This document shows positions 3,928-53,382 of a stretch of 64,000 nt of DNA, in pieces. The stretch comes from Candidatus Binatus sp. (GTDB lineage Bacteria > Desulfobacterota > Binatia > Binatales > Binataceae), in the NCBI RefSeq assembly GCF_030646925.1, contig NZ_JAUSKL010000087.1, positions 62,001 through 126,000 of the forward strand, read 5' to 3'. Every line of letters starts with the position of its first letter. The stretch's first letter is position 1. The notes beneath the pieces were generated by a model, which made no database searches, was not told the origin of the DNA, and saw nothing but the letters and a program-made list of their open reading frames with translations. A program made the translations under genes and the position numbers.

Positions 3928-4860
3928 ATGAAGGAAAAAGAGATCGAAGGATCTCTCTGGGACGTGTTTATCCACGTGCTAGCGGTGATAGCACTTTATG
4001 TGAGCATCGTGGGCGCGCTCACGGTGCTGTTTCAATACGTGAATCTCTCGTTAACTGACACGGCGGATGTCGAGGTCGACGTTAGGGATCGAATCCGATG
4101 GGGCGTGGCGTCATTGCTGATCTTTTTTCCCGCTTATGTATGGGCGTGGCGCTTGATCGAGATGGACCTGAGCGAGAACCCGGAGAAAAAGAAACTATGG
4201 GTGCGCACTTGTCCCATCTATCTCACCTTGTTTCTCGCAGGGCTGCTCGCGCTATCGGATCTCGCCTGCCTCGTCTACTACTTCATGAGCGGCGACCTGA
4301 CGTCGCGTTTCTTGCTGAAGGTTATCGCAGTTTTGCTGGTCTCGGGTGCGGTTCTGTGGTTCTATCTGAGCGCTCTCCGCCGCGTCCCCGGCCCGCTACC
4401 GAGCGCGACCCGCGCCTTTGCGTACGCTACCTTTTTGCTCGTTGGACTACTCGTGATCGCCGGCTTTGCGACGGCGGGATCTCCGTCGCGCGCGCATCTT
4501 GCTCGCCTGGATGTTACACGGATAGAGAACCTGCAGGATATTCAACGAGAAATCGTTGAATACTGGCAGAATAAGATGGCGCTCCCAACCTCATTGGATC
4601 AGCTCAGCGATTCGATCTCGGGGTTCTCGCCGCCGCGCGACCCGGCTACCAGTGCATCATATGGCTATCATGCGGTCAGCCCTACTTCGTTCGAACTCTG
4701 CGCGGACTTTGCACTGAGAGATTTCGACACTGAGCACACGCTACCTTCCTGGACGCGAATGAGACTTGGTAAAATATACTGGAACCACGAGGCGGGACAT
4801 TTCTGCTTTTCACGAACAATAGATCCCGCTCGTCATCCGCCCCACAAGCCCGAGGCCTAG
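3928..4860 (+). CDS. polytopic membrane protein, DUF5671-like
   Basis: 310 residues. Five hydrophobic segments are visible at about 12-35, 55-75, 90-113, 120-145 and 160-182, followed by a soluble C-terminal part of about 125 residues. The arrangement and the WRLIEMDLSENPEKKKLW linker resemble DUF5671 proteins, but I cannot assign a function. Start is the ATG at 3928; GGGACGG lies upstream. It stands alone between an MBL gene and tRNA-Leu. The 195 bp behind it hold nothing I recognise. Confidence 0.65.
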   Translation: MKEKEIEGSLWDVFIHVLAVIALYVSIVGALTVLFQYVNLSLTDTADVEVDVRDRIRWGVASLLIFFPAYVWAWRLIEMDLSENPEKKKLWVRTCPIYLTLFLAGLLALSDLACLVYYFMSGDLTSRFLLKVIAVLLVSGAVLWFYLSALRRVPGPLPSATRAFAYATFLLVGLLVIAGFATAGSPSRAHLARLDVTRIENLQDIQREIVEYWQNKMALPTSLDQLSDSISGFSPPRDPATSASYGYHAVSPTSFELCADFALRDFDTEHTLPSWTRMRLGKIYWNHEAGHFCFSRTIDPARHPPHKPEA

Positions 4861-5055
4861 GCCGGACCGGCTTGATTAACAGAGACGGCTGCTTACACCC
4901 GGTTGGATTTGGCGCTCTCCCTAGAAGCACCTTAACGCTCATCTTTGTGAATAGGAAGACGACTTAGAGGTCGTTAACGGACTTTCTGCTTCACCGACAT
5001 CGCTGTATCGGTTATTTCTATCCTCTCGGATCTCTCATATGATGATTGCATCTTC

Positions 5056-5136
5056 GCGAGAGTGGCGGAATGGCAGACGCGCTGGACTTAGGATCCAGTG
5101 CCGCAAGGCGTGGGGGTTCAAGTCCCCCCTCTCGCA
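5056..5136 (+). tRNA. tRNA-Leu (anticodon TAG)
   Basis: Acceptor GCGAGAG pairs with CTCTCGC and is followed by discriminator A. The anticodon stem CTGGA/TCCAG encloses loop CTTAGGA, giving anticodon TAG, which reads CTA/CTN Leu codons. A long variable arm (GCC-GCAA-GGC) and T arm GGGGG-TTCAAGT-CCCCC complete a type II tRNA. CCA is not encoded. Confidence 0.97.
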
Positions 5137-5188
5137 TCAGCCAGAGCCGCTGCAAGCGCTCCAGGCATAGTAGTTTTGAAGTTCGGCG

Positions 5189-5446
5189 ATGCGTCTTCAA
5201 TCGAGCAGCCAGGCCAATCGGATCATCACCGCCGTGGTTGGTTCGACGCTCCTGATCGTCGGCGTCGCGATGCTGGCACTACCGGGGCCGGGCTGGATCG
5301 TTATCTTTTTTGGCCTCACGATCCTGAGCGCGGAATTCCTCTGGGCGCGGCTGCTGCTGAGACGTCTCAAGCAAGCCGGTCAAAAAGCCAGCGACATGGT
5401 TTCTCCGTCGCGTGCAGTTAACAGTGAAAGCAGCAAAGTGAGATGA
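5189..5446 (+). CDS. small membrane protein, PGPGW family
   Basis: 85 residues with two hydrophobic segments (about 10-28 and 34-52) joined by [11 protein letters not shown], the signature of the putative transmembrane PGPGW family (function unknown). The C-terminus is short and basic. It starts at an ATG 53 bp behind tRNA-Leu and may share its transcript. Member of an uncharacterised inner-membrane family. Confidence 0.8.
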
Positions 5447-5506
5447 ATCGCGATCGCATCAACCTCGAGTAACAATAGTGATCCGGCGCGACCTTGGTGC
5501 GGTGAG

Positions 5507-6385
5507 TCAGGCGAGACCCGGACGAACTTCGGAATCGAAACGATCGAGGAAGTTGTCGATGGAATCGCCGCCGATCGGAGTCACCAGCAATTCCTGGACG
5601 CCCAGCGCCGCGAAGCGATTCAAGTAGTCGGTCAACTCGGCGGGCGGCGCAAGGATACCTTCGACGTAGCCGCCCGTCTCGGTCCATCGCGGCGCAAATC
5701 CAACATAGACCCGATGACTGATCGCGAAGCCGGCCAGGTCGCGATTTCGGCGCGCCGCGATCTCGCGAATCCAGGTGATCCGGTCGGCGAGCTGTTCGGG
5801 CTTCATCCGCGTGCCATGCCATCCGTCACCCAGTTCGACGGCGCGGCGAATCGCGCGGCGGCTGATCCCGCCGACCCAAATCGGGATGTTGCCCGCCTGT
5901 GGACGGGGACCGAACCGCATTCCGCTCAGATTGAAAAATTCGCCGTGATACTCCGGCACGTCGGCCGACCACATCGCGCGCATCAAGCTGATCGCCTCAT
6001 CGGTATAGGCGCCGCGGCGCTCGAATGACACGCCGAGCGCGCTGAACTCCGCTTCCAGCCATCCGCTTGCAACCCCCGCGATAATCCGCCCCGACGAGAG
6101 GCAGTCCAGCGTCGCGAGCTCTTTGGCCAGATGGATTGCGTTTCGATACGGAACGACGATCACGCTGGTGGCGAGTTTGATTCGGCTCGTCAGCGCGGCA
6201 ACGTAGGCGAGCGTCGCGACCGGCTCCATAATTTCGATCGCGGGCAGGCGGCCGCTGGACGCCGGCACCAGTAGATGATCGCTCACCCAGATCGTTTCGT
6301 AGCCGCTTTGCTCAGCGCGAATCGCGATCCGCGCGATGTCGCTCGCGGAGCCGCCGATTTGCGGCAAATGAATTCCGATCTTCAT
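5507..6385 (-). CDS. LLM class F420/flavin-dependent oxidoreductase
   Basis: 292 residues, normal for the luciferase-like monooxygenase family (TIM barrel using F420 or FMN). Signatures: MKIGIHLPQIGG start strand, ETIWVSDHLL, LDCLSSGRIIAGVASGW and PIWVGGISRRA. The ATG at 6385 is chosen over an upstream one because AGGAGG sits just ahead of it and the protein then begins with the first barrel strand. Substrate cannot be read. It lies 16 bp downstream of the secreted protein gene, so it probably ends the nadE operon. Confidence 0.88.
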   Translation of the reverse strand: MKIGIHLPQIGGSASDIARIAIRAEQSGYETIWVSDHLLVPASSGRLPAIEIMEPVATLAYVAALTSRIKLATSVIVVPYRNAIHLAKELATLDCLSSGRIIAGVASGWLEAEFSALGVSFERRGAYTDEAISLMRAMWSADVPEYHGEFFNLSGMRFGPRPQAGNIPIWVGGISRRAIRRAVELGDGWHGTRMKPEQLADRITWIREIAARRNRDLAGFAISHRVYVGFAPRWTETGGYVEGILAPPAELTDYLNRFAALGVQELLVTPIGGDSIDNFLDRFDSEVRPGLA

Positions 6386-6401
6386 CGCGCCTCCTAAGGA
6401 T

Positions 6402-7178
6402 TCAATGCGGCTTCGCGCTGGCGAGCATCGCAACTACCTGCCGCGCGGTGCCGATATCCACGTTCAGAGACTCCGCCGCTAGCTTCCATGCGTTGGCCTG
6501 ATCGTTTTTCGCGAGGTACGCGCGGATCCGCGCCGCTAGCGACTCGTCAACGCGCGCATAAGCCTCCTTCGCGCGAGCCTCAGTGCTTTGCGAGCTAGCT
6601 GATTTGACTTTGTTGAGGCGATCCATGCCAAGTTGGGTCGGACATGGCGCCGTCTCGTACCACTTGCCGTCCTGCTGACCTATCATCCGGTTCAGCGTGA
6701 TATCGCCGCGCTCCGCATTGTTGAATTGAATCTCAAGAACGTAAGTAGGCGCGACCGGATAGGTGCGGAATTTCGAATCGATAGATGCGTTAAGCGATAG
6801 CTTCGCGACACTTAGCCGATGGCGCTCGGGAATCGAATAGCGAAAGTGCTTCTTGAGCCAGCTATTCAGGTACGCCTGCCTGCTCTGATCGAAGCATGCC
6901 AGCGCCTCAGGTGCGACTAGTTTTTTAAGCTCAACGACGTCCTTCTTTCGGATCGCGGCAACCATCCGCTCGCCGAATTGGTGTTGCTCGGGCGTTATCT
7001 CCGCGGGCGTATCCTCGGTCATCGAGTCCTGTGCGCTACTATCGGCCGCCGACGTTGGCGCTCGATGCACTAGCGCCGGAAGCTGCGGTGGCGACGCCGC
7101 CGAATCGCCCGCCAGCGCGATCCCGCTGAGCGCGGCGAGCGCGATCGCGAGCATCGCAGATGCGCGCCGCACGCTCAC
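6402..7178 (-). CDS. secreted protein of unknown function
   Basis: About 258 residues. The GTG at 7178 overlaps the nadE stop as GTGA, which suggests translational coupling; the frame stays open a little further upstream inside nadE. The N-terminus has an Arg-rich n-region and a hydrophobic core ([15 protein letters not shown]), a signal peptide. The mature part has a Pro/Ser/Ala-rich linker, then a globular region with two Cys (ACFDQS and APCPTQ) that could form a disulfide, and a helical C-terminus. No family recognised. Between nadE and an LLM oxidoreductase. Confidence 0.65.
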
Positions 7179-9235
7179 TCGTGGTCGGGAATCAATTTCA
7201 GTTGTTCGATCCACGCGGTGGCTTCACTGTCCGACGGCGCGCGATAGTCGCCGCGCGGCGACAGCGATCCGCCCGATCCAACTTTGGGCGCGTTCGGGAT
7301 GCAACTGCGCTTGAACTGGCTCAGCCGGAAGAAGCGATAGAGAAAGGTGTGCAGGTGCGCCTTGATCGTCGCGACATCGTACTGATGGCGATTCTCCGGC
7401 GCGATCCCCGGCCATCGCCCGGCTTCCTTGTCGCGCCACGCATGATGCGCCAAATAGGCGACCTTCGGCGGCGGATAGCCAAAGCGCAAAATGTAGTAGA
7501 GAAAAAAATCGTGCAGCTCGTATGGCCCAATCGTCGCCTCCGTGTCATGCGTCGGATGACCGTCGTCGTTAGTGCCGGGAATCAATTCGGGACTGATCGG
7601 CGTGCTCAGGATGTCGAGCAGCGTCTTGCTCGCGTCGCGGCCGAGGCTCTGATTTTCCGCCACCCATCGAATCACGTGCTGGATAAGGGTTTTCGGCACG
7701 CTCGCGTTGACGCTGTAGTGCGACATGTGATCGCCCACGCCGTAGGTGCACCAGCCGAGCGCGAGCTCGCTTAAGTCGCCGGTGCCTACCACCAATCCCG
7801 CATGCAGGTTCGCCAGCCTGAACAGATGACTGGTGCGCTCGCCCGCCTGCACGTTCTCGAAAGTGACGTCGTAAATTTCCTTGCCTTCGGCGAACGGATG
7901 CTCGAGGTCGCGCAGCATCTGCATGCAGCTTTCGCGGATGTCGATCTTCTCGGCCTTGCAGCCGAGCGCCTTCATCAGGCGATTCGCCTGCTCGAGCGTG
8001 CGCTCGCTGGTCGCGAACCCGGGCATCGTGACGGCGTAGATATTTTTCGCTGAATGCCCGAGCCGCTGCATCGCGCGCGCGCATACCAAGAGCGCATGCG
8101 TCGAATCGATTCCGCCGCTGACGCCGATTACGACGCGCTCGAGCCCGGTCGAGCGGAGCCGCGTCGCGAGTCCCTGCACCTGGATTTCGAACACTTCGGA
8201 GCATCGCTCGTCGCGCGTCGCCGGGTCCGACGGCACGTACGGAAAGCGCTCGTAAATGCGCTCCGGAATCATCTTCGCGCGGCGCGGCAATTCAGTCGTG
8301 AACGCGATCCGGCGAAAGCGCCTGAGCTTGTCGAGTTCGCGCTGCGCGTTGAGGCCGAAGGTATTCTGGCGCATCCGCTCCTGCGACAACCGCTCGAGGT
8401 CGATCTCCGAGCAGACCAGTTGCGGCTCATCCTTGAATCGTTCCGTCTCCGCCAGGATATTGCCGTTCTCCGCGATCAGCCCGTGGCCATCCCACGCGAG
8501 ATCGGTGGTCGATTCGCCCGGCCCCGCCGCCGAGTACAGGTACGCCGCGATACATCGCGCCGACTGGCTGCTCACCAGCGTCCGCCGGTAATCCGCCTTG
8601 CCGACGGTGATATTCGAGGCCGACAAATTCAGCAGCATTGTCGCGCCCGCCAACGCCGCATACGACGACGGCGAAATCGGCACCCACAGGTCTTCGCAGA
8701 TTTCCGCATGGATACTCAGCCACGGCTGATCCTCATGCTGGAAAATCAGGTTGTTGCCGAACGGCAGCCCGCGTTGACCCAGCAAATCGATCTCGTCGCG
8801 CGTCGCCGCGTCAGCCGACGTGAACTGGCGCGCCTCGTAGAATTCGCGATAGTTCGGCAGATTGGTCTTCGGCACGACGCCCAGAATCCTGCCGCGGCTG
8901 ATGAAGACCGCGCAGTTGAACAGGTGATGATCGATCGCGAGCGGGGAGCCGACAACGGCCAGGATCGGCAGCTTGGCGCTCGCCTCGACGATCGCGGCGA
9001 TACCGGCGAGGCATCCGTCGAGCAGCGCGCGCTGCTGGAACAAATCGTCGCACGAGTAGGCGCTGATCCCCATTTCCGGAAAAAGCGCGAGCACCGCTTT
9101 GCGCTCAGCCGCCTGCTTGAGCAGCGCGATGGTTTGTTCGCTATTGAAGGCTGGGTCGGCGACGCGGATCGCCGGCACGCCGATCGCGACGCGCACGAAA
9201 TCGTGGCTATAGAAGTTGAAGAAATTTCCCGTCAC
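7175..9235 (-). CDS. nadE: glutamine-dependent NAD+ synthetase
   Basis: Converts deamido-NAD+ to NAD+ using ammonia from glutamine. 686 residues, the length of the fused bacterial type. The N-terminal nitrilase-like glutaminase domain (about 10-290) carries E54 (LFPEMG), K123 (VPKTNL) and C180 (AEICEDL). The ATP-pyrophosphatase domain starts near 350 with the P-loop SGGIDS at 373-378. Start is the ATG at 9235. It is followed by a GTGA-coupled secreted protein gene and an LLM oxidoreductase on the same strand. Confidence 0.95.
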
Positions 9236-9419
9236 TTCGTCTCCGCCGCTGACGAATCGCGCATCATCTTCTGCGCCAAGCGCCGCGGCCGATTTTTATC
9301 CGCTGCATGCCGCGCCGGGCGTTCCACCGGCTCGTTTGCGCGCGTCATTAACGATGACTCTGCCGCTTGTTTCGGGCTGGTACAAGATGGGTCACCTGGC
9401 GCCCGCGCCCGCCGGAGGG

Positions 9420-9517
9420 CGAGTCGCCGCTCTGATACCTCGCCCGTTACTTTACGGGAGAGGGCGCCGAAGTCGCGGAACGCTACGAGGCAGGTGAGGG
9501 TGCCGGATCGCCTGCTA
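9420..9517 (+). repeat. short interspersed repeat, left arm of the DUF559 cassette
   Basis: About 98 bp holding two imperfect hairpins: CCTCGCCCGT...ACGGGAGAGG, and GTCGCG-GAA-CGCTAC. The inner end, GGATCGCCTGCTA, runs into the stop codon of the DUF559 gene. The same sequence is found inverted at 9948-10048, and related gene-less copies are at 26958-27082. Confidence 0.85.
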
Positions 9518-9910
9518 ACGCACTTTCGCTCGATTGCCATCGATCTCAGCAAGCACCCGCGCGATTTCTTCGACTAGAGCATCCACGCCGGTCATCACGT
9601 CGGAGTTCCAGAAACGGAGGACCCTGAATCCCAAGCTCTCGAGGTGCCTGGTTCGGGCGTCGTCGTAGCGCTTGAGCTGATCGAGATGCTGTTCGCCGTC
9701 GAGCTCGACTATCAGCCGCGCTTTGACGCAGCAGAAATCGGCGATGAAATCATCGATCGGAACTTGTCTTCGAAATTTCCAATTCTCGAGAGCTCGATTC
9801 CGCAGGATCGACCAGAGCCGCTTTTCCGCATCGGTGGCTTCGCGACGCATCTTGCGCGCGCGGGCGAGATCTTTGCTCGAGGTCAATCGCGGTGGAACGA
9901 AATCGGGCAT
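9515..9910 (-). CDS. DUF559-type endonuclease-like protein
   Basis: 131 residues, typical for the DUF559 family related to very-short-patch-repair (Vsr)-like PD-(D/E)XK nucleases. Visible: RREATDAEKRLWSILRNR, KFRRQVPIDDFIADFC, the acidic strand LIVELDGEQH and LGFRVLRFWNSDV. The D/E and QH positions match the family's presumed active site. The ATG at 9910 is preferred to the TTG at 9928. The stop codon lies inside an inverted repeat whose other arm starts 38 bp upstream of the ATG, so the gene fills the space between the arms. Possible role: strand nicking linked to repeat movement (inference). Confidence 0.85.
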   Translation of the reverse strand: MPDFVPPRLTSSKDLARARKMRREATDAEKRLWSILRNRALENWKFRRQVPIDDFIADFCCVKARLIVELDGEQHLDQLKRYDDARTRHLESLGFRVLRFWNSDVMTGVDALVEEIARVLAEIDGNRAKVR

Positions 9911-9947
9911 GGATGAAGAATCGCACAATATGCTAGCAGCGGTGAAC

Positions 9948-10048
9948 TAGCAGGCGATCCAGCACCCTCACCTACCTCGTCGCGTTCCGCGACTTCGTCC
10001 TCCTCTCCCCTAAAATAACGGGCGAGGTAAAGAAGAGGCGCCGACTCG
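9948..10048 (-). repeat. short interspersed repeat, right arm of the DUF559 cassette
   Basis: Reverse complement of the 9420-9517 repeat, near-identical over about 80 bp from TAGCAGGCGATCC outward, then weaker to CGACTCG at 10042-10048. Its second hairpin, GTCGCG-GAA-CGCGAC, is perfect. Together with the left arm it brackets the DUF559 gene. Confidence 0.85.
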
Positions 10049-10094
10049 TATTGTCAGCTTGCAAGAGCGGCGAATTGCTGCCCCCCTCTCTTTT

Positions 10095-10230
10095 CTAACA
10101 GCGCGGAGCGCGCATCCCTCTTATTGCGATTCGGCCCTGCGGCCCGAAGTCGGCTTCGCGTCGCCCCAGGAAGCGGCCCCTTCGAAGCTCAGGGTAAACT
10201 CCACCCGTGAGGGGTTTCGGGAATTATTCT
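10095..10230 (+). repeat. interspersed repeat downstream of uvrB, copy 1
   Basis: Starts with CTAACAGCGCGGAGCGCGCAT, includes CGCCCCAGGAAGC and ends with CCCGTGAGGGGTTTCGGGAAT. These blocks recur in the same order at 17796-17884, where the middle is shorter. Both copies sit just behind the 3' end of a minus-strand gene. It occupies most of the 345 bp between the DUF559 gene and uvrB. Confidence 0.7.
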
Positions 10231-10255
10231 TGCCCTCCTGCGCGGCCTACCTGCC

Positions 10256-12523
10256 TCAGTGCGGAGGGCCGGGGATCAGCTTCAGCTTGTTCTGGCGCGG
10301 CGGGCTCTTCGCGCCCGCGGCGCCCGCAGCCGCGCCGGTCGCGGCGCCTGCGCCGCGACGTCCGCGCGTCTTGACCGGGATGATACCCCGTTCCGTGATG
10401 TCCTTGATCTTGTGTTTCTCGCCGCGCCCGCGCGCGGAATCGCTCGCATGATGATGCGCCGAGCCGGGCGGCGCCGACGGCAGTATCGGATGCTTCGGCT
10501 GATCCATCCCGAGCGCGTGACGCTCGAGTTTTTTGATCTTGTCGCGGAGTTCGGCGGCGCCTTCGTAGTCCAGTTTCTCGGCCGCTTCCATCATCTCGCG
10601 CCGAAGCGCCGTGATGCGATCGGAAAGTTCGTGCGGCGGGATAAATTCTTCTTCGGACTTGCCGTCGCCGATCTCCGGCACCACCGCCCATTCCGGCGAA
10701 TACATCTCGACCAGGGACGCGTCGATCGCTTTGACGATCGATTTCGCCGTGATGCCGTGCTCGACGTTGTAGGCGACCTGCTTGACGCGGCGCCGATCGG
10801 TTTCGTCGATCGCCTGGCGCATCGATTTCGTGATCGTATCGGCATACATGATCACGCGGCCGTTTAAGTGACGCGCGGCACGGCCGGTGGTCTGAATCAG
10901 CGAGCGCGCGGCGCGCAGAAATCCTTCCTTGTCGGCGTCGAGAATCGCCACCAGCGACACTTCCGGCAAATCGAGTCCTTCGCGCAGCAGGTTGATTCCG
11001 ACCAGCACGTCGAAATCGCCGCGCCTGAGCCCGCGGATGATTTCGACCCGCTCGATCGTTTCGATATCGGCGTGGAGATAGCGCACGCGGATGCCGAGGT
11101 CGTGGTAGTAGTCGGTCAAATCCTCGGCCATTTTCTTGGTGAGGCAGGTGACCAGCACCCGCTCATTGACGGCCACGCGCAGACGAATTTCTTCGAGCAG
11201 ATCGTCCACCTGCGTGCCGGCTTTGCGCACTTCGATCTGCGGGTCGATAAGTCCGGTCGGCCGAATCAACTGCTCGACGACCAGCCCGCCCGACCTCGCC
11301 AGTTCGTGATCGCCGGGAGTCGCCGACACGTAAACCGCCTGACTGACGTGCGATTCCCATTCCTCGAAGTTGAGCGGGCGATTGTCAAGCGCCGACGGCA
11401 GCCGAAACCCGAAATCGACCAGCACGCTTTTCCGCGAGCGATCGCCGCGATACATCCCGCCGATCTGCGGCACCGTCACGTGGCTTTCGTCGATGAAGTA
11501 GAGCGCATTCTTCGGAAAATAATCGAGTAGCGTCGGCGGCGCCTGTCCCGGCGAACGCCCGGTCAGATGACGCGAGTAGTTCTCGATCCCCGGACAGAAG
11601 CCCATCTCCGCCAGCAACTCCAGGTCGTAGCGGGTGCGCTGTTCGAGGCGCTGCGCTTCGAGCAGGCGATTCTCCTGGCGATAGAACTCGAGCCGCTCTT
11701 TCAATTCGATGCGGATGTTCGTGACCGCGATTTCCATCCGATCGGAGGTCGTCACGTAGTGCGACGCCGGATAGATCGCGACGCTCTGCAGCTTGCGGAT
11801 CACCTTGCCGCGCAGCGCGTCGATTTCGTACATCGCTTCGATCTGGTCGCCGAAAAATTCGATCCTCACCGCGCGCTGCTCCTCGTATGCGGGAAACACC
11901 TCGACCGTGTCGCCGCGCACGCGAAACGTCCCGCGATGAAAATCGTAATCGTTGCGCTGATACTGGATATCGACCAGCTTGCGCAGCACCCGATCGCGCT
12001 CGATCGTTTGCCCCTCCTCCACGAACACCACCGTCTCGAAATAAACTTCCGGCTCGCCGAGGCCGTAGATGCATGACACCGACGCGACGATCAGGACGTC
12101 GTTGCGCTCGAGCAATGCCTTGGTCGCCGAATGCCTGAGCTTGTCGATCTCGTCGTTGATGCTCGCGTCCTTCTCGATAAACGTATCGGTCGAGGGGACG
12201 TAAGCCTCGGGCTGGTAGTAGTCGTAGTACGAGACGAAATAGCGGACCGCGTTGTCCGGAAAGAGGCTCTTGAACTCGTTGTAGAGTTGCGCGGCGAGCG
12301 TCTTGTTCGGCGCCATCACGAGCGTCGGACGATTCACCCGCTCGATCACGTTCGCCATCGTGAACGTCTTGCCCGAGCCGGTTACGCCGAGCAGCACCTG
12401 ATGCGGCACGCCGTCGATTAGATTGCGGGTGATCGCGTCGATCGCGGCGGGCTGGTCGCCCTCGGGCTTGTAGCTCGATACCAGCCTGAAGACACCCTCT
12501 TTGCCGCGCGCCAGTGAAAGCAT
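10256..12523 (-). CDS. uvrB: excinuclease ABC subunit B
   Basis: DNA-damage-binding helicase-like subunit of nucleotide excision repair. 755 residues, longer than the usual ~670 because of an Ala/Gly/Lys-rich tail of about 70 residues. Visible: Walker A GVTGSGKT at 46-53, the beta-hairpin region [35 protein letters not shown], helicase motif VI region ([13 protein letters not shown]) and the C-terminal UVR domain ([20 protein letters not shown]) that contacts UvrC. The frame opens 60 codons earlier; the ATG at 12523 gives the conserved N-terminus. A uvrA-like gene lies 10 kb away on the other strand. Confidence 0.95.
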
Positions 12524-12956: not shown

Positions 12957-14318
12957 ATGAAGAATCGAAGATTAATTGCTTTCGTCGCGTGCGCGTTACT
13001 CGCGATAGCCGCGCCCGCAATGGCGGATTTGTATTCCGCGGGACCCGCCGGCAAACGATTCGAGCGATGGCTCACCCGCCATCCCAATGTCGCAAGTCAG
13101 CTGTCGGCAAATCCCTATCTGGTTTACAACCCAGGATGGCGTGCGGAACATACGGACGTACAGGAATTTTTCGAGCAGCATCCGGATGTATGGCAAGGGA
13201 TGGCGGCTGAGAGTAGGAAGTATTACAGTGACCGCTTCCGGCAGTTCCTCTCGAATCATCGGGAGATCGCTCGCGACATATCCGAGAATCCGTCCCTTTT
13301 GTACAATCCCGTGTACCTCGACGCGCATCCGAGGCTTCAAGAATTTCTCGCGCAGAATCGGTCTGTCTGGCAGTGGGGTTCCTTGGGCACCGAGTATGCG
13401 CGTGTCCCGGACAACTACGGCGATGCGTGGGGCGACTACGACGAGAACCGCCAGTGGCACGACTACTATTGGTGGCATCAGAATCGTCCCGATTGGTTCT
13501 GGTCTCATCATCCTGAATGGGCCGCGAATGAACCCGCCTGGCGCGACTACGACGGCGACTTCGACGAAACCCGCCAGTGGCACGATCGCAACTGGTGGGC
13601 ACAGAATCGCGCCGATTGGGTAAAGACGCATCATCGCGACTGGGGCGATTGGGACGAAAATCGCCAGTGGCACGATCGCGACTGGTGGGCGCAGAACCGC
13701 GTCGACTGGGTCGCGCGCAATCGCACCAACTGGCTCCAGCAGCGCCAGACCTACGAGCAGGCGCTCAGAAACGCTCAGGCGAAAGCACAGCAGCAGGATC
13801 TGAAGATCAAGCAACTGCGCGATCAGCAGCGTGCATCGCAACTGCAAGAGCAGTCACAGCGGCAGCAGGCTGCCCGACTTGAGCAGCAAAGACAGCAGCA
13901 GCAGGAATCGGCAAGACTCGAGCAGCAGCAGAAAATGCATCGGATGCCGCCGATTGAAGTCGCGCCCCCGATGCACAAGATGCCTCCTGCGGGCGTTGGC
14001 GTGAGCAACGCGCCGCCGATGCACAAGATGCCGCCGATTGCCGTCCAACCGCCGATGCATAAGATGCCTCCTGCGGGCGTTGGCTCGGGCAGCGGCGAGG
14101 AATCCAGGATGCATCGCATGCCGCCAGTCGAGGCCGAACCCAAGATGCATAAGATTCCGCCGATTGCTGCGGAGCCTCGGACGCCGCAGGCTGGCTCAGA
14201 CGTGGCGCAGCAGAACATGAAGAAGATGAACAAACATGGCAAGGCCGAACCGGCTCCGCAGGGCGCCGTCCATGAATCGAAGGAGATCAATGGCGGCGCC
14301 GGCGAAGTGAATCACTAG
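12957..14318 (+). CDS. secreted Trp-rich repeat protein with MH(K/R)(M/I)PP tail
   Basis: 453 residues; no family recognised. Signal peptide at 1-23 (cleavage after AMA). Two repeats of about 90 residues in total carry the motif HP-N-V...NP..VYNP.WR..H...F...HP.VW. Three Trp/His-rich repeats follow, each built as DENRQWHDRDWWAQN plus RVDW. Then comes a Gln/Arg-rich coiled-coil-like stretch (about 265-320) and a tail with six boxes of Met-His-(Lys/Arg)-(Met/Ile)-Pro-Pro. Start fixed by AGGAGG six bases ahead. It is followed by a paralogue sharing the two repeat types but lacking the Met/His tail. The tail could bind metal such as Cu+; this is inference. Confidence 0.8.
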   Translation: MKNRRLIAFVACALLAIAAPAMADLYSAGPAGKRFERWLTRHPNVASQLSANPYLVYNPGWRAEHTDVQEFFEQHPDVWQGMAAESRKYYSDRFRQFLSNHREIARDISENPSLLYNPVYLDAHPRLQEFLAQNRSVWQWGSLGTEYARVPDNYGDAWGDYDENRQWHDYYWWHQNRPDWFWSHHPEWAANEPAWRDYDGDFDETRQWHDRNWWAQNRADWVKTHHRDWGDWDENRQWHDRDWWAQNRVDWVARNRTNWLQQRQTYEQALRNAQAKAQQQDLKIKQLRDQQRASQLQEQSQRQQAARLEQQRQQQQESARLEQQQKMHRMPPIEVAPPMHKMPPAGVGVSNAPPMHKMPPIAVQPPMHKMPPAGVGSGSGEESRMHRMPPVEAEPKMHKIPPIAAEPRTPQAGSDVAQQNMKKMNKHGKAEPAPQGAVHESKEINGGAGEVNH

Positions 14319-14357
14319 ACCTTGAGCATTCCAGCTTTGGGTCGTAACGAATGAGAT

Positions 14358-14390
14358 AATCGGGAACCCAAATCAGGATCCCCGATTTTG
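14358..14390 (+). terminator. possible intrinsic terminator
   Basis: AATCGGG and CCCGATT pair across a 16-base loop, followed by TT. It lies 40 bp behind the first secreted repeat protein and ahead of the paralogue. The long loop and short T run make it weak. Confidence 0.45.
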
Positions 14391-14440
14391 ATACGCAAGA
14401 TGAAATTGAATAAGTGAGATTGGTGCAGGGAGGAAGGAAG

Positions 14441-15274
14441 ATGAAGCGACTACGAACCGCAGCCCTGATCGCGAGTGCCGTGCTGACATTCGCGGCTCCA
14501 GCGTTCGCGCAGGGATGGTTCTCTGGCGCCGACGGCCAGACTTTCCAGGAATGGCTCTCGGGTCATCCAAATGTCTCGCGCAGTCTGGGCGCCGATCCCT
14601 ATCGAATCTACGATCCGCAGTGGCGCGCCAATCATCCCGAGCTGCAGGATTACATCCAGAATCATCCGGGCGTATGGAACAACCTGCGCGCGCAAGGATC
14701 GACTTACTACGACCAGCGCTTTAACGAGTTCCTGGCCAATCATCCGCGCTCGGCGCGCGAGCTGCGCGCGAATCCGGAGTTAATCTACGACCCGCGCTTT
14801 CGCGCTCAGCATCCGGAGCTGAACGAATTCTTGGCGACGCATCCAAGCGTCTGGCGCGCCGTCAAAAACGATTATCGGCCTGTTCCGATGCCCAACCGAT
14901 GGGGCGCGTACGACCGTAATCGTCAGTGGCGTGACTACACCTGGTGGCATGAAAACGATCGCGATTGGTTCTGGAAAAATCATCCTGAATGGGCAGCGAA
15001 CCATCCTGATTGGCGCGACAACGACGGCGATTGGGACGAGCACCGCCAGTGGCACAATCGCGATTGGTGGGCGTCGAATCGTCGCGATTGGGTAGAAGCT
15101 CATCATCCGCGCTGGTTCGACAAACACGAAGCCCACGCGGAACGGAAGGCGCAAAAGGACGCCGAGAAAAACGCCCGGCACGCGCAGAAGGATGCGGCCA
15201 AAGAGGCCAAGGCCGAGTCCAAGCACGATCAGGGACATGGCCGCGGGCATGGCAAAGGACACGACAACGACTAA
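14441..15274 (+). CDS. secreted Trp-rich repeat protein, paralogue
   Basis: 277 residues; no family recognised. Signal peptide at 1-23 (ending FAAPAFAQG). Two repeats of the HPNVSRSLGADPYRIYDPQW type span about 30-130. Two Trp-rich repeats (DRNRQWRDYTWWHEN, DEHRQWHNRDWWASN) follow. The C-terminus is a charged Lys/Ala helix ending in a His/Gly-rich stretch (HGRGHGKGHDND). GGAGGAAGG lies just ahead of the ATG. It arose by duplication with its upstream neighbour and has a different tail, so the repeats are the conserved core. Likely periplasmic or surface exposed; role unknown. Confidence 0.8.
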   Translation: MKRLRTAALIASAVLTFAAPAFAQGWFSGADGQTFQEWLSGHPNVSRSLGADPYRIYDPQWRANHPELQDYIQNHPGVWNNLRAQGSTYYDQRFNEFLANHPRSARELRANPELIYDPRFRAQHPELNEFLATHPSVWRAVKNDYRPVPMPNRWGAYDRNRQWRDYTWWHENDRDWFWKNHPEWAANHPDWRDNDGDWDEHRQWHNRDWWASNRRDWVEAHHPRWFDKHEAHAERKAQKDAEKNARHAQKDAAKEAKAESKHDQGHGRGHGKGHDND

Positions 15275-26781: not shown

Positions 26782-26881
26782 TTTGTCATTCTGAGCGCAG
26801 CGAAGAATCCCGGATGCTTTACTCTGCCCGGCATCGCCCCGGGATTCTTCGGCGTCGCAGCCTTAGCCTCAGAATGACAAA
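26782..26881. repeat. 100 bp inverted-repeat element (CCGGGATTCTTC family)
   Basis: Outer arms TTTGTCATTCTGAG and CTCAGAATGACAAA, inner arms GAAGAATCCCGG and CCGGGATTCTTC, pair across a short loop. The right half plus flank recurs, inverted and identical over about 50 bp, at 53380-53432. With two further elements it fills the 519 bp gap between the pseudouridine synthase and the next gene. Confidence 0.85.
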
Positions 26882-26957
26882 GTTGGTCAAGTTCGCTTAG
26901 TAGTAAAAGGCATAAGCTCTGAGCGAAGCCTGCTGCCTTCGGTCATCTCCTATGCGG

Positions 26958-27082
26958 ACGCCGCTCTCCTAATACCTCGCCCGCTTGGTTGCGGGAGAGG
27001 TCGCCCGCCGCCTTCTTTGCCTCGCCCGCTTTGTTGCGGGAGAGGTCGCCGAAGCGCGCCAGCGATGAGGCGGGTGAGGGTG
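26958..27082 (+). repeat. two gene-less copies of the DUF559-cassette repeat
   Basis: A shortened copy (GCCGCTCTCCTAATACCTCGCCCG to GGGAGAGGTCGCC) is followed directly by a longer copy (CCGCCTTCTTTGCCTCGCCCG to GAGGCGGGTGAGGG). Their outer ends match those of the repeats around the DUF559 gene, and the CCTCGCCCG...CGGGAGAGG hairpin is kept. Confidence 0.8.
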
Positions 27083-27097
27083 CAGACGGCGCGAGCT

Positions 27098-27245
27098 AAA
27101 AATCCGGGATTCTTCGCTCCGGCAGCCTCCGCTCTGAATGACAACGTTGGTGAGGTTCACCCGGTACTAAAAATTCGATGCCGTTCGGCATTCTGTCATT
27201 CCCGCGCGTGGCTGCCGCGCGAGGAATCCCGGATCTCTTCCCGGA
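27098..27245. repeat. two half elements of the CCGGGATTCTTC family
   Basis: Half 1 (to about 27142) reads ATCCGGGATTCTTC...TGAATGACA. Half 2 (from 27194) reads CTGTCATTCCCGCGCGTGGC...GAGGAATCCCGG, matching the reverse complement of the right arm of the element at 53383-53497. The arrangement looks like rearranged pieces of full elements. Confidence 0.7.
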
Positions 27246-48539: not shown

Positions 48540-49399
48540 CGAGCAGTCTTCCAGGCAGAAAAATCGCGGCCGGTCAATTGCTCGAGCCGATCGATTTCGG
48601 GACGAAAATAATCGCGGAGCCGCGCGTCCGTCTCGCGATCGACCGGCTTGAAGGGCTCGCCCCGCTCGGCGCAGAAGTGCCAGAGCGCGCTCTGCCTGAA
48701 TGAATTGGCCAGTCCGTGATAGCGATGGTCGTTCAGCCAGGCCATCAGATTGCGCGCGTTGCGGGCCAATCGGAGGTTGCGGGGCGCGACCGGCACCACG
48801 TGCACCCGCCGTCCTGCGACCGGCGAATTGGCGACCACAAACCTTTCGATCCCGATAAGATCCGCGACCCGATCGACGAAGGCCTGCGAATCGGCCTCGA
48901 GATCCTCATACACGATGACGAAAACGTTTTCGGCGCCCAGCGTATTCCGCCACGCGGCGAGGTAATGGCCGTAACGGCACGATTCGCGAAGATCCCTGTG
49001 CGACATCACCGCGTCGGCGAACTCAAGCCGCGTCCACACGTTGCGGACCATCAGGCGCCAGTGTGAATAGGCGCGATCGACGGGATCGCGAAACGAACAG
49101 ATGATGCGGCATCCGGGGATGTCGCGCGCGATGCGCGTTCGCGCGTCATCCGAAATGAAGTACGTTGGCGAAAATTCTCCGAGCGGCAAGCGCGGGTCGG
49201 CGTCGCGAAAAAACGATCGGTACCAGTCGAAGCCCTTGTCGTAATTCTTCGAGAAAAAATCGGTCTCCTTCTTTTCCTGCGGAAGAGCGACGCGGCCCTT
49301 CAGCACTTCATGCAGCCACGTCGTCGCGGTGCGCGGCGGTCCGACGCCGATGAAGCGTGGCAAGCGCGTGGGCGACGATTGAAGGATCGCGGCGGGCAT
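48536..49399 (-). CDS. sulfotransferase 1
   Basis: 287 residues. The 5'-phosphosulfate loop GPPRTATTWLH and 3'-phosphate motif SFRDPVDRAYSHW bind PAPS; the C-terminal RPEIDRLEQLTGRDFSAWK is shared with the three paralogues. Transfers sulfate to an unknown carbohydrate or lipid. Last gene of the minus-strand cluster; its stop overlaps that of the convergent activator. Confidence 0.92.
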
Positions 49400-49407
49400 C
49401 TCGTGAA

Positions 49408-50352
49408 TTACTCCACGTGCTTCGACGCGCGGCTGGTGCGACCGCCTAACGCCCGCGCCACGCTGAGCGGCAGATAAGTCCGGGCGTAGCGGAGATAGTT
49501 GCGCGCGCGCAGCGGATCGAATCGCAAGGCGCGACCGAACGCCTCGCGCGCAGTGGCTCGATCGCCCTCGTCGAGCGCCTTCAGCCCGATGTAGCCGAGG
49601 ATCGTACGCGGGGCGCGTTCGCGCGCGCGGATCAATCCCATCACATCGACGTTCCAGCGTTCGCGCGCGAGCCGTTCGAACAACCGCGCCGCCTCGCGTT
49701 CCTTACGTCCTCGCTTGAGCGGCTTGGGGAAGAGCGAAAAGCGCCACACCACCAGCCGCTCCGCGACGTAGGCGAACGTGCCGAGTTCGCGCGCGCGCAT
49801 CCACATGTACACGTCCTCGTAGCCGTAGGAGCGGAACTCTTCCGAGAATCCGCCGCACTGATCGAAGGCCGAACGGCGCATCAAAACCGCGCTCGGCATG
49901 ATCGGCCACAGCCGCGCGAAGAGATCTTCGAGCGTCGGCGCGCGTTCGACGCGATCGCCCACCAACGACGTCTTCAGTTCGCGGCCCTCGCTATCGACGA
50001 TCACCAAATCAGTGAACGCCATCACGCAGTTCGGGTCGGCCTCGAGGGCCGCCACCGTGCGCGCCAGGAAATCGGGCACCCACAGATCGTCGCCGTCGAG
50101 GAAGGCGAGATATTCGCCGCGCGATACCGCGACGCCCGAATTGCGCGCCGCCGAGATTCCGCCGTTGGGCCGGCGGATCATCTGGATGCGATCCTGGTAG
50201 CGGCCCAGCACCTGCGACGTGCGATCGGTCGAGCCGTCATCGACGACGATGATTTCGTAGTCCTCGAAGGTCTGCCGCAGTACGCTCTCGATCGTTTCGG
50301 CGACGGTGGCGGCGGCATTGAAGACCGGAATGATAACGCTGACTTGGGGCAT
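49408..50352 (-). CDS. family 2 glycosyltransferase
   Basis: 314 residues. VSVIIPVFNAAATVAETIES, IIVVDDGSTDRTSQVLG and AFLDGDDLW are the GT-A fold signatures; GGFSEEFRSYGYEDVYMWMR is the later acidic motif. Start is the ATG at 50352. It lies between sulfotransferase genes with 8-11 bp spacing and probably builds the sugar that they sulfate. TPR-like helices end the chain. Confidence 0.9.
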   Translation of the reverse strand: MPQVSVIIPVFNAAATVAETIESVLRQTFEDYEIIVVDDGSTDRTSQVLGRYQDRIQMIRRPNGGISAARNSGVAVSRGEYLAFLDGDDLWVPDFLARTVAALEADPNCVMAFTDLVIVDSEGRELKTSLVGDRVERAPTLEDLFARLWPIMPSAVLMRRSAFDQCGGFSEEFRSYGYEDVYMWMRARELGTFAYVAERLVVWRFSLFPKPLKRGRKEREAARLFERLARERWNVDVMGLIRARERAPRTILGYIGLKALDEGDRATAREAFGRALRFDPLRARNYLRYARTYLPLSVARALGGRTSRASKHVE

Positions 50353-50363
50353 CGCAAATGCGA

Positions 50364-51254
50364 TCAAACCGCGGCAAGCGGCTCGGTCGAAAGAGAGCGA
50401 TCGCGGCTTTCCTCAGAGTGCTTCCACAGAGACAGGTCGAGCTTCAACAAATCTTCGAGCGCTTCGACGTCGGGCCGGAAACGCTCGCGCACGCGCGTAT
50501 CCTGTTCGGGCGTAAGCCGCGGATACAAGGGACCGCCGCCGAAGCAAAATTCCCATGCGCCGGCGTGGGCCAGCAGATTGATCGTGCGATAGGCGCGATT
50601 GCGTTTCAGATAGACGCGCAGATGGCGCGCGTTCTGCGCAAGCTTGTGACTCCGCGGCAGGCTTGAAAATGAATTGACCGAGTCGTGGAGGCCTTCCGCG
50701 TCGTCGAGCGACGCGCGCGCGATACCGATAAAATCGCAGATCCGATCGAAGTACGCCTGCTGATCTTTTTTCAGGTCGTCATAGAAGCAGACCAGCACGC
50801 GCTGACGCCCGAAGCGCGCGAACCAATCCGCGAGATGAAACGCGTAGCGATTTGCGCCAGTGACCTGCGGGCGCGTCGCGAGGAACTCCTCGAAGCCGGC
50901 CTTGGTGTACGCGCGGCATCGCATCAGCTTGTAATGCGAATAGGCGCGCTCGACCGGATCGCGCAGCGTCACGATAATCCGGCATCCGGGCATGTGCTTC
51001 TGGATTCGTTCGCGCGCTTTGGGAAACGCAAAATAGTTGCACACCTCGCCCATTGGCAGGTTCGGCTCGGCGCGGCGAAAATGGCTCAAGTACCAGTCGG
51101 TACCCTTGTCGTAATAGACGTCGAAAAAATTGATTTCCTTCACGTTGAGCGGCAGTCCGACCCGGCCGATCAGCGCGCGATGCAGCCACGTGGTGCCGGT
51201 GCGCGGCGGTCCGACGCCGAGAAAATCAGGCCATCGCAGTTGGTCGCGGCTCAT
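50364..51254 (-). CDS. sulfotransferase 2
   Basis: 296 residues. GPPRTGTTWLH and TLRDPVERAYSHYK are the PAPS motifs; ends RPDVEALEDLLKLDLSLWK. The ATG at 51254 overlaps the stop of sulfotransferase 3 as ATGA; the frame continues upstream as a shadow of that gene. Paralogue of the neighbours. Confidence 0.92.
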   Translation of the reverse strand: MSRDQLRWPDFLGVGPPRTGTTWLHRALIGRVGLPLNVKEINFFDVYYDKGTDWYLSHFRRAEPNLPMGEVCNYFAFPKARERIQKHMPGCRIIVTLRDPVERAYSHYKLMRCRAYTKAGFEEFLATRPQVTGANRYAFHLADWFARFGRQRVLVCFYDDLKKDQQAYFDRICDFIGIARASLDDAEGLHDSVNSFSSLPRSHKLAQNARHLRVYLKRNRAYRTINLLAHAGAWEFCFGGGPLYPRLTPEQDTRVRERFRPDVEALEDLLKLDLSLWKHSEESRDRSLSTEPLAAV

Positions 51255-52159
51255 CGGCGGCCGCCGATTGCGCTCGCGCTCGCGTGACCGATCGACTCGT
51301 CGTCGCGTTGCGCTCCCTTCCACGCCGACAAGTCGCAGCCGAGGAGATCCTCGAGCGCCTCGACCTCGCCGCGATAGCGCTCGCGCAGGCGTGCCTCGAT
51401 CGCCGGATCGATCGGCGCGAACTCCTCGCCGCGGCCGAAGCAGTAGCGCCACACGCCGGCCTTGTCGAGCAGATCGATCGCGCGATGCCATCGATGAAGC
51501 CGCATCCAGTCGCGCGCGTTGCGGGCATTCTGCGCGACGCGGCGGCTGCGCGGCGCATGGGTAACGGTATTCACCCGCTCGGTCGCGAGCGACGAGCCCT
51601 GCACGACGACGCGCGGAATCCCGATGAACGTGCAGATGCGATCGAGATACGCCTGCGGGTCGGCCTCGAGTTCTTCGTACATGCAAACCAGCACGCGCTC
51701 GCGGCCGAACCGCTCCCACCAATTTTTCAAATGATATGCGTAACGGCTCGATTCGCGGATCACCGGATTTTTTGCGACGGTTTCCTCGAAGCCGACGCGC
51801 GTCCATGCGTCACGCCGCATGATTCGATACGACGAGTACGCGCGTTCGACCGGATCGCGCAACGAGCAGATTATTTTGCAATCGGGGATGAGCGCGGCGA
51901 TTCGATCGCACGCCTCCGGGATTCCAAAGTAGTTCGGATCGATCTCGCCGAGTGGAAGGTTCGCGGGGCATTGGCGAAAAAATTCGAGGTACCAATCGAG
52001 CCCGCGCTCGTGATGCTTCGAAAAATAATCGGTCTCCTTGATGCTCGGCAGGCCGACGCGCCCCGCGAGCACCCGATGCAGCCAGGTGGTGCCGGTGCGC
52101 TGCGGCCCGACCGCGAAAAATTCCGGCAGGCAACGCTGTTCTCTTCGGAGTTCGCTCAT
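51251..52159 (-). CDS. sulfotransferase 3
   Basis: 302 residues. GPQRTGTTWLH, SLRDPVERAYSSYR and the ending EVEALEDLLGCDLSAWK. Coupled to sulfotransferase 2. Together with 2 and 4 it shares the pattern of about 190 residues around FHLKNWWERFGRERVLVCMY-like strands, so they arose by tandem duplication. Confidence 0.92.
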   Translation of the reverse strand: MSELRREQRCLPEFFAVGPQRTGTTWLHRVLAGRVGLPSIKETDYFSKHHERGLDWYLEFFRQCPANLPLGEIDPNYFGIPEACDRIAALIPDCKIICSLRDPVERAYSSYRIMRRDAWTRVGFEETVAKNPVIRESSRYAYHLKNWWERFGRERVLVCMYEELEADPQAYLDRICTFIGIPRVVVQGSSLATERVNTVTHAPRSRRVAQNARNARDWMRLHRWHRAIDLLDKAGVWRYCFGRGEEFAPIDPAIEARLRERYRGEVEALEDLLGCDLSAWKGAQRDDESIGHASASAIGGRR

Positions 52160-52206
52160 CTATTCATCGATTCGCCGATAACGCTAATCGTATCTGAGCG
52201 CGCGGG

Positions 52207-53097
52207 CTATCGCGCGCTGGCGGCGAGGTCGCTCTTCGATTCGCGCGCGAGCCGCGGTCTTTTCCACGCCGACAAATCGATTTCCAACAACTCTTCGAGC
52301 GCCTCGACTTCCGGCCGGTACCGCTCGCGCAGTTTCGCTTCCTGTTCGGGCGTCAGCGGTGGGAATTTCTCGCCGCGCCCGTAGCAATACTGCCAGACGC
52401 CCGCGCGATCGAGCAGATTGATCGCGCCGTATGCCTGCCGGCTCCTCAGCCAGTACATCACGTGCCGCGCATTTTGCGCGAGCTTGCGATTTTTCGGCGC
52501 GCGCTCGTACGCGTTTACGTCGTCGCCGACCGGGCCACGATCGGCGAGCGAAATTCTGGCGATGCCAACGAAGTCGCACACCCGATCAAGGTAGCGCTGC
52601 GGATCGGCGCGTAGTTCGTCGTACATCGTGATCAGCACGTTCTCGCGGCCGAACTTGTCGAACCATCCTTTGAGATGGAACGCGTAGCGATTGCCGCGAT
52701 CGAGATGCGGCCGCGTGTTGAGCACTTCCTCGAACGAACCGCGCGCCCAAACGTAGTGCCGCAGCAGTTTGTACGCTGAATATGAATGATCGACCGGATT
52801 GCGCAGCGTCGTGATTATTTTGCAGTTCGGGATATGCAGTTTAATCCGATCGCGCGCCTGCGGATCGATGAAGTAAGGGCAGATTTCCGCAATCTTGCGC
52901 GAGCCGTCGGCGTAGCGGAAATGATGCGCATACCAATCGATTCCCTTCGCATAGAAAGTATTGAAGAACTGCGTCTCCTTCACGCCGTACGGCAAATCGA
53001 CGTGCCCTTCCAGCACGCGATGAAGCCACGTCGTGCCGGTGCGGCCGGGACCAACTCCGATAAATTCGGGCAGTCTCAAGGGGCGTGCTGATGCCAT
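52207..53097 (-). CDS. sulfotransferase 4
   Basis: 296 residues. GPGRTGTTWLH is intact; the 3'-phosphate motif reads TLRNPVDHSYSAYK, with Asn where the paralogues have Asp. Ends RPEVEALEELLEIDLSAWK. First gene of the minus-strand cluster; a promoter should lie in the 530 bp upstream gap shared with the LLM gene at 53631. Confidence 0.9.
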   Translation of the reverse strand: MASARPLRLPEFIGVGPGRTGTTWLHRVLEGHVDLPYGVKETQFFNTFYAKGIDWYAHHFRYADGSRKIAEICPYFIDPQARDRIKLHIPNCKIITTLRNPVDHSYSAYKLLRHYVWARGSFEEVLNTRPHLDRGNRYAFHLKGWFDKFGRENVLITMYDELRADPQRYLDRVCDFVGIARISLADRGPVGDDVNAYERAPKNRKLAQNARHVMYWLRSRQAYGAINLLDRAGVWQYCYGRGEKFPPLTPEQEAKLRERYRPEVEALEELLEIDLSAWKRPRLARESKSDLAASAR

Positions 53098-53382
53098 CGG
53101 GTGCGAGCGATTTTTGGTGTCGATTTCGATGCCGAGTACGGTCCGGTCGGGGACTTCATTTCACGGGACCCTGAGCGTTTGCGATCGAGCCGCGCCTTCA
53201 GGTCGCAACATTGCATACCAAGGAGGCGCGGATTTCAAGGCGACGCGGAAGCAATCGAACTGATCGAAGCCTGAGACTATCGGCGCGATCGCGTGCAGGC
53301 TGCTGCCCTTCGGTGATCCCACGCGGTTGCTTACTTCCGCCATCCTGAGAGCTTGTGAATTTTTCTGCACCGAGCGAGCCTG

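Follow-up and report, generated by a model that had tools for sequence, protein, structure and literature searches.

Triplex-motif repeats framing DUF559 nuclease genes: a candidate class of small mobile element in bacteria

We analysed a 64-kb stretch of DNA from Candidatus Binatus sp. (hereafter the window), in which a gene encoding a DUF559 (PF04480) protein is placed, between nadE and uvrB, within a pair of inverted repeat arms. The arm-gene-arm unit is probably a small mobile element composed of a nuclease of the Vsr/EDxHD fold and of ends which follow the rule of intrastrand triplexes, the nuclease being the partner of dispersed gene-less repeats in the same way as RAYT proteins are the partners of REP/REPIN sequences. 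The arms are BoxC/PIT/triplex repeats, an identity absent from the preliminary description of this DNA (made by a model from the sequence alone).

The coordinates of the unit and of the related features are given in Table 1. In an inverted-repeat search of the whole window, the two arms (93 nt each, 86% complementary, spacing 430 nt) constituted the first of the six inverted pairs of at least 40 nt listed, and the ORF between them matched the Pfam DUF559 model with E=2.3e-40 (137.3 bits; curated cut-off 20.6). The near-identical inverted arms bracketing a DUF559-like gene, which had been proposed in the preliminary description, were thereby confirmed, as was the placement of the inner arm ends in the stop codon and upstream of the ATG.

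Table 1. Features of the DUF559 unit and related repeats in the window
Feature	Position	Strand	Remarks
DUF559 (PF04480) ORF	9515..9928	-	137 aa from TTG at 9928; first ATG at 9910
Stop codon of the DUF559 ORF	9515-9517	-	overlapped by the left arm, whose end coincides with it
Left arm	9425..9517	+	triplex motif 9438-9500 plus inner extension ending on the stop codon
Right arm	9948..10040	-	same motif, inverted; triplex part 9965-10027; begins 38 bp before the ATG
Unit in common with the second copy (L002)	9424..10042	.	86% identity over ~620 bp; similarity stops at these positions
Gene-less relative	26958..27083	+	hairpin at ~26973-27000, then full triplex motif 27020-27080; GC-loop subfamily
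Interval with synteny breakpoint versus G003	9389..10271	.	nadE-side homology ends at ~9388, uvrB-side homology starts at 10272; unit lies between

In each arm, going from the outside inwards, a pyrimidine stem (CCTCGCCC) is joined through a loop to a purine stem (GGGAGAGG), which is followed by a small second hairpin and then by a tail (GGTGAGGG). This tail mirrors the purine stem, with T permitted opposite A, which is the rule of an intrastrand triplex of the purine motif. Of the two hairpins per arm noticed previously, the small one is indeed present, but the arm is better described as one hairpin with a third-strand tail, the small hairpin being located between them. A finder based on these three parts, with blocks of 8 nt and no more than one mismatch in each, returned four matches in the window: both arms (each 7/8 for Watson-Crick pairing and 8/8 for the third strand), the gene-less copy and one unrelated GGC-rich stretch. 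The finder, the search pattern and the subfamilies described below were all defined after the arms had been seen. The DNA folding energy of the arms was unremarkable (z -0.61 and -1.33), and we rejected their reading as plain hairpins of the REP kind as incomplete, since the hairpin energy is not unusual and the tail fits its own stem better than other stems.

The latter result was obtained with 225 arms, which were picked by their hairpin alone in the vicinity of 132 of 138 DUF559 loci, the following 40 nt being scored as a possible third strand. The tails matched the mirror of their own stem with a mean of 8.48 out of 9, compared with 6.81 for the stems of other arms and 6.33 for shuffled tails, and the own mirror was the better one for 28 of 36 distinct stems and not for the remaining 8. 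This indicates that stem and tail change together, as seen in the paired variants GGGAGAGGG with GGGTGAGGG and GGGGAGAAGG with GGATGAGGGG. The third strand thus co-varies with its own stem, which a plain hairpin would not require.

An AlphaFold2 model of the DUF559 protein (34 sequences, pLDDT 88, pTM 0.79) was most similar to 3hrl, a gonococcal endonuclease-like protein (Z 15.9). The second-best solved match was the catalytic domain of I-Bth0305I (3r3p_A; Z 12.1, rmsd 2.5, 95 aligned), and Vsr was also matched (1cw0; Z 10.4, rmsd 2.2, 99 aligned); fold families absent from this list are not counted as excluded. A profile search against the PDB gave E values of 1e-42 for 3hrl, 0.002 for I-Bth0305I and 0.58 for Vsr, the last of these among chance matches. 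The residues invariant in 36 sequences include D64, E75, D77, H81, D89 and FWN. The protein falls outside the Vsr sequence family (16 bits with NCBIfam vsr, cut-off 97.85), and Pfam at E 0.001 gave only DUF559 and REase_MTES_1575, so that Y1_Tnp, the HUH tyrosine transposase domain, is absent. PADLOC, used to detect anti-phage defence genes, produced only weak matches to parts of large proteins, and neither an intron nor an intein was seen around the gene. Judging from the model, the only protein of the unit is probably a nuclease of the Vsr/EDxHD fold, which agrees with the original suggestion of a Vsr-like nuclease in place of a transposase.

Parts of this assignment are already in print: YcjD has been placed in the PD-(D/E)XK superfamily (PMC1189080), and one paper classes a DUF559 gene with the EDxHD homing endonucleases (PMC9403480). 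Moreover, VsrA of Caulobacter, a DUF559 protein, is described as damage-inducible and as triggering a damage response when a methylase is missing (PMC12907096), behaviour that fits an enzyme able to break the chromosome.

Association of the triplex motif with DUF559 genes

Three DUF559 genes were found in the genome from which the window is derived, and inverted arms of the same kind frame all three. The window copy (L001) and the second copy (L002) are alike throughout gene and arms (Table 1) and have no flanking sequence in common. The similarity covers both arms up to their outer edges and goes no further, which defines the unit as arm-gene-arm and places it at two sites in the genome.

The repeat is also widely dispersed without the gene. 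The search pattern had 66 matches in the same genome (none for a backwards control pattern), and among 30 gene-less loci fetched from it, some of them overlapping, 21 contained a single motif, three an inward-facing pair and two other pairs, the finder detecting no motif in four. Most gene-less copies are therefore not MITEs carrying both ends. The preliminary view of an autonomous element accompanied by MITE-like derivatives was thus supported with regard to arm-gene-arm units at different places and to the existence of gene-less copies, but not to the form of the majority of the latter.

Loop type and inner extension divide the gene-less copies into two subfamilies (counts of 13, 0, 3 and 13; p 1.1e-5), with the provisos that 3 of the 32 copies belonged to no class and were left out, and that the classes were drawn from these same copies. 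The arms of L001 and L002 belong to one subfamily and those of the third copy (L003) to the other. The gene-less relative in the window, described earlier as sharing the outer ends of the unit, is real, but it comprises one extra hairpin and one full motif and belongs to the subfamily of L003, not to that of the window gene. The two repeat subfamilies of this genome hence appear to be matched to different DUF559 genes. An analogous tendency was observed in genomes with several DUF559 genes, in which the arms of one gene resembled each other (mean 0.75) more than the average pair taken across genes (0.65) in 13 of 15 loci (those, among 20, for which both arms and a comparison were available).

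A motif whose tail points toward the gene (referred to as a facing motif) was present within 300 bp of 25 of the 26 DUF559 loci of this genome and its relatives, of 80 of 80 Rhizobiales loci (on both sides in 53) and of 28 of the 29 best-scoring loci from across the phylum (both sides in 25). The Rhizobiales sample comprised the best 80 of 294 loci found with one rhizobial protein; all the samples consist of best matches to the DUF559 profile or to this protein, and the rates are not valid for DUF559 genes as a whole. From the set of 26 we excluded L048-L051, which are DUF559-like stretches in large or broken frames, and weak matches without a locus were outside the count. The only locus of this set lacking a facing motif (L054) still carries inverted hairpin arms. 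DUF559 genes without the repeats, which the preliminary description had regarded as evidence against its proposal, were accordingly rare in these samples (1/26, 0/80 and 1/29); however, the E. coli homologue ycjD is unframed (see below).

The motif is concentrated at the gene. In the Rhizobiales loci its density was 4.5 per kb at 0-300 bp from the gene, 0.009 at 300-1000 bp and 0.09 beyond 1 kb, compared with 0.015 in Markov-resampled flanks. None of the 158 control ORFs of the same loci (at least 450 nt) was framed on both sides and 9 of the 158 had a facing motif on at least one side, while the six Vsr loci that were scanned contained no triplex motif. An inverted-repeat search performed without the triplex rule recovered arms of at least 30 bits at 56 of the 80 Rhizobiales loci.

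Similar arrangements were found in more distant hosts. Motifs were present near seven of eight loci scanned in Cyanobacteriota (2), Deinococcota (2) and Alphaproteobacteria (4), two of which are also included in the counts above, and near DUF559 genes of Sinorhizobium meliloti Ak57 and Neisseria gonorrhoeae. In several of the eight loci, including both from Deinococcus, the tails point outward. In L249, L251, L252 and L253 the third strand lies wholly or partly on the side away from DUF559, opposite to most loci. Downstream of DUF559 in N. gonorrhoeae, a pair of triplex motifs recurs three times at intervals of ~281 bp (L084, 4528-5223). A single scan of viral contigs with one protein revealed one relative, which is likewise framed, and 44 records of a plasmid collection contained a DUF559 match, of which a selected few were read. 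Together, these sequence comparisons show a linkage of gene and repeat in many lineages.

The association is also visible at the level of whole genomes. Among 198 genomes of the phylum, 74 had DUF559 matches. The commonest form of the motif was present in 44 of the 53 genomes with DUF559 (match at E<=1e-10) and in 28 of the 124 without any match (odds ratio 16.8, p 8.6e-14); the 21 genomes with weak matches only, 10 of which contained the motif, were kept out of this count, and the backwards control pattern was found in just one of the 198 genomes. In 1000 draws of one genome from each of the 77 families, p had a median of 7e-5 and a maximum of 0.028. Where a family had both states, the genomes with DUF559 had the higher motif copy number in 15 cases and the lower in 4. 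The association was weaker for Y1_Tnp (69/141 versus 13/57, p 8e-4) and hardly present for Vsr (18/32 versus 64/166, p 0.08); in Y1-negative genomes DUF559 still separated the two groups (6/8 versus 7/49).

The correspondence is not complete in either direction. No motif of the searched form was detected in 9 of the 53 DUF559 genomes. Repeats unaccompanied by the gene, also named in the preliminary description as a counter-indication, do exist, as the 28 of 124 genomes show, and 12 genomes lacking a DUF559 match contain at least 10 motif matches. The closest relative of the source genome (G003) has no DUF559 gene, yet it contains a few arm matches.

Changed position and empty sites

Pairs of Rhizobiales DUF559 genes with at least 70% gene identity and sufficient flanking sequence fell into two groups: both flanks were common in 304 pairs and neither in 133, with no pair sharing only one flank. 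Just four of the 133 flank-less pairs exceeded 80% identity (76% or less in the remainder), and since all four involve the same locus (L129), they represent one event, in Rhizobium johnstonii 3841.

This strain has a first unit at 585 kb, which occupies the same place in R. ecuadorense, R. sp. CCGE 510, R. aethiopicum and R. sophoriradicis, and a second unit at 622 kb, which is 89% identical to the first over 612 bp of arm-gene-arm. The 622-kb site is empty in two of these relatives, its flanks being 8 bp apart in CCGE 510 and 15 bp apart in R. aethiopicum; the empty site follows an apparent TGA stop codon and precedes a hairpin. No target-site duplication was evident in the comparison of filled and empty sites, in which 8-15 bp at the junctions are unaligned. 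At the same site, unrelated sequence takes up ~390 bp in R. sophoriradicis and ~1.8 kb in R. hainanense and R. tropici, and the flanks fall on two separate contigs in R. ecuadorense. A DUF559 gene is also present there in R. cauense, but because it is just 70% identical to the R. johnstonii copy, the latter is most likely derived from its own 585-kb copy. Loss of the unit elsewhere, or gene conversion, is possible. The arm-gene-arm unit thus appears at different sites and, in this one case, with empty sites in related species.

In these Rhizobium genomes a dispersed gene-less unit, of which two copies were read, is ~143 bp long and is an inverted pair of triplex motifs of two types. The corresponding search, with the gene locus and its flanks counted, gave 63-95 matches per genome in seven of eight genomes; R. 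cauense gave only 7, despite the presence of DUF559. On plasmid pSymB of S. meliloti, no clean empty site was found among the matches listed.

The site in the window could not be used as an empty-site test, because nadE and uvrB are on different contigs in each of the six other genomes of the same genus. In G003, uvrB adjoins a homologue of the window ORF at 3928-4860, whereas in the window these genes are separated by ~5.4 kb (4875-10271) containing a tRNA gene (5056-5136), nadE and the DUF559 unit. Homology with G003 ends on the nadE side of the unit and resumes on its uvrB side (Table 1), so that the unit sits at a synteny breakpoint. This position is compatible with the instability reported for such repeats.

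The DUF559 gene of E. coli, ycjD, is located beside a BoxC repeat. In MG1655 there is one motif, which lies ~170 bp downstream and whose tail points away from ycjD, and in strain KE47 two downstream motifs, one of which faces the gene; neither strain has a motif upstream. We examined three E. coli repeat sites. Two of them, zntA-tusA and tldD-aaeR, were rejected as clean empty sites: at least 80% of the region was covered in 5365 and 5369, respectively, of 5375 matching genomes, most of the rows listed match end to end, and in the genomes read the repeat was intact, mutated or partly deleted. At the third (cpxA-yiiM, L209), at least 80% of the region was covered in just 154 of 5375 matching genomes. 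The source strain carries there a block with two triplex motifs. In three other genomes read the site is filled by a different repeat, which we take to be a BIME, and this points to an exchange, for which reason the site was rejected as a clean insertion.

In 60 spread E. coli records, 8-22 repeat places were counted in the 38 with ycjD and 1-13 in the 22 without it (one of them a small plasmid record). The presence of ycjD therefore tracks a higher number of repeat places, but it follows lineages, which makes this weak evidence. Three ycjD-less strains that were read have efflux-pump genes, the eef operon (PMC12817139), at the place of ycjD. The system gives the impression of being old and largely static or fixed in some hosts, E. 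coli among them.

Relation to known repeats, possible route and alternative explanations

Triplex repeats of the BoxC type have been known from E. coli since the 1990s and were subsequently shown to occur in more than 260 genomes (PMC4666352). They have the same consecutive pyrimidine, purine and mirrored third-strand blocks as the window arms, and the repeat beside ycjD, CCCTCGCCCCTCTGGGGAGAGGGTTAGGGTGAGGGG, is identical to the letter to one of the TMs that Holder et al. 2015 list for MG1655 (PMC4666352). These authors described inverted pairs of two motif types, to which the Rhizobium pairs are comparable, as well as variation and instability at TM sites; the E. coli motif formed a triplex in vitro, and in vivo footprinting did not support a stable triplex (PMC4666352). 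They state that no mobility activities were ever found in the neighbourhood of BoxC/PIT/TM repeats, and their main text mentions neither "ycjD" nor "endonuclease" (PMC4666352). The literature that we searched contained no paper linking these repeats to DUF559 and no report of cleavage, binding or movement; the evidence presented here is entirely comparative. We propose DUF559 as the partner gene that these known repeats have lacked.

The closest parallel is with REPIN-RAYT systems, in which one gene is likewise framed by palindromic repeats and accompanied by many gene-less copies. REP repeats are tagged hairpins, in contrast to the triplex motif found here, and their enzyme is an HUH tyrosine transposase instead of a nuclease of PD-(D/E)XK/Vsr fold. 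An inverted pair as the dispersed unit, typical of REPINs, was seen in 3 of the 30 fetched loci of the source genome and as dimers in the Rhizobium units read. In comparison with MITEs that have an autonomous parent, the gene-less copies are mostly single motifs in the source genome and dimers in Rhizobium. The EDxHD homing endonuclease I-Bth0305I resembles the DUF559 protein in the fold of its catalytic domain and in being encoded by a selfish nuclease gene; E75, D77, H81 and D89 may correspond to the E, D, H and D residues of that family. The unit described here differs from it in having no visible intron or intein and no long DNA-binding region, and in being framed by repeats. Vsr shares the fold, but its sequence family is distant and the six Vsr loci scanned are devoid of the motif.

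A plausible route begins with an arm that becomes single-stranded during replication or repair and may then fold into a hairpin or a triplex. The DUF559 nuclease would recognise the folded arm, most likely in single-stranded DNA, and could cut either the arm itself or a target beside it. Host repair or recombination might subsequently copy the arm, or arm-gene-arm, into another intergenic site. Mobility, in such a scheme, would be driven by the nuclease.

Of the alternatives, the nearest to this scheme, with which it partly overlaps, is a unit resembling homing endonuclease genes, whose nuclease cuts empty intergenic targets, with double-strand-break repair copying the unit and the gene-less repeats being its remnants. 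The rank of the I-Bth0305I catalytic domain as the second-best solved match (profile E 0.002) and the empty sites in two related species are in keeping with this. Homing, however, re-occupies one site, whereas the repeats are found at tens to more than 100 places per genome, and the surroundings of the gene show no sign of an intron or intein; we consider it an unlikely, if serious, competitor. Next in rank is a host function, somewhat less likely again, according to which DUF559 is a structure-specific repair enzyme that removes or resolves triplex or hairpin DNA, while the repeats nearby regulate or mark the gene and spread by ordinary recombination. A repair gene would be expected at a conserved place, and instead we observed flank-less units, a second copy and empty sites, as well as a patchy distribution (19 of 38 genomes, the source genome included); subfamily matching is also unexpected for a general enzyme. 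This has to be set against the presence of Vsr and Holliday-junction resolvases among the fold matches, the fact that two of the three tested E. coli repeat sites are present in nearly all genomes, and the damage-related behaviour of Caulobacter VsrA (PMC12907096).

It is improbable that another enzyme, or recombination, spreads the repeats and that DUF559 genes are simply cargo caught between two of them. Such hitch-hiking should have produced varied cargo, but the same gene family is encountered in Pseudomonadota, Cyanobacteriota and Deinococcota, and framing on both sides was seen in 0 of 158 other ORFs compared with 53 of 80 DUF559 genes. It would account for the repeats that exist without DUF559 and for the E. 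coli site at which a repeat block replaces a different repeat with no clean insertion. A very improbable reading is that the arms serve a small nuclease gene as transcription terminators acting in both directions, or as insulators, and are unrelated to mobility: they do lie just outside the gene ends or overlap them, and they contain hairpins. Nevertheless, Holder et al. cite an earlier study in which these elements showed neither terminator nor promoter activity (PMC4666352), a terminator has no need of third-strand covariation, and gene-less copies are common.

The small mobile element with its own nuclease, which we favour over these readings, might belong to something larger. We see about equal chances for and against the wider proposal that DUF559 nucleases and triplex repeats form an unrecognised and very widespread class of mobile DNA, with matched pairs across several phyla, in which the nuclease would recognise its own repeat when three-stranded or folded into a hairpin, and would spread it with no transposase involved, and which would explain the BoxC/PIT/TM repeats together with their reported instability. 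The pairing of nuclease and repeat in distant bacteria suggests that this enzyme may be the partner so far lacking for a repeat family that has been known for decades. If the link is true, both members gain a testable function, the repeat as substrate and the nuclease as actor. The known routes by which short repeats spread would be extended by a catalytic type (the Vsr/EDxHD-fold nuclease) and a DNA structure (the intrastrand triplex), and this in accessible hosts such as E. coli K-12 and Sinorhizobium. The link would also give an enzyme to the instability reported at the repeats and perhaps provide a reason for the VsrA-linked damage in unmethylated DNA of Caulobacter.

Other repeats in the window

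Several further repeats were observed in the window. A second dispersed family, unrelated to the arms, adjoins the unit at 10091-10221 and has many copies (roughly 80-94% identity over the longer matches) in the same genome and in G003. The gene-less triplex copy (26958-27083) has on both sides members of a family containing CGAAGAATCCCGG and GTCATTCTGAG (26796-27233), which recurs at 53373-53496 (97% over 59 nt, 100% over 41 nt). In addition, the segments 13428-15120 and 49253-53077 contain paralogous repeats of 60-85% identity at regular spacing.
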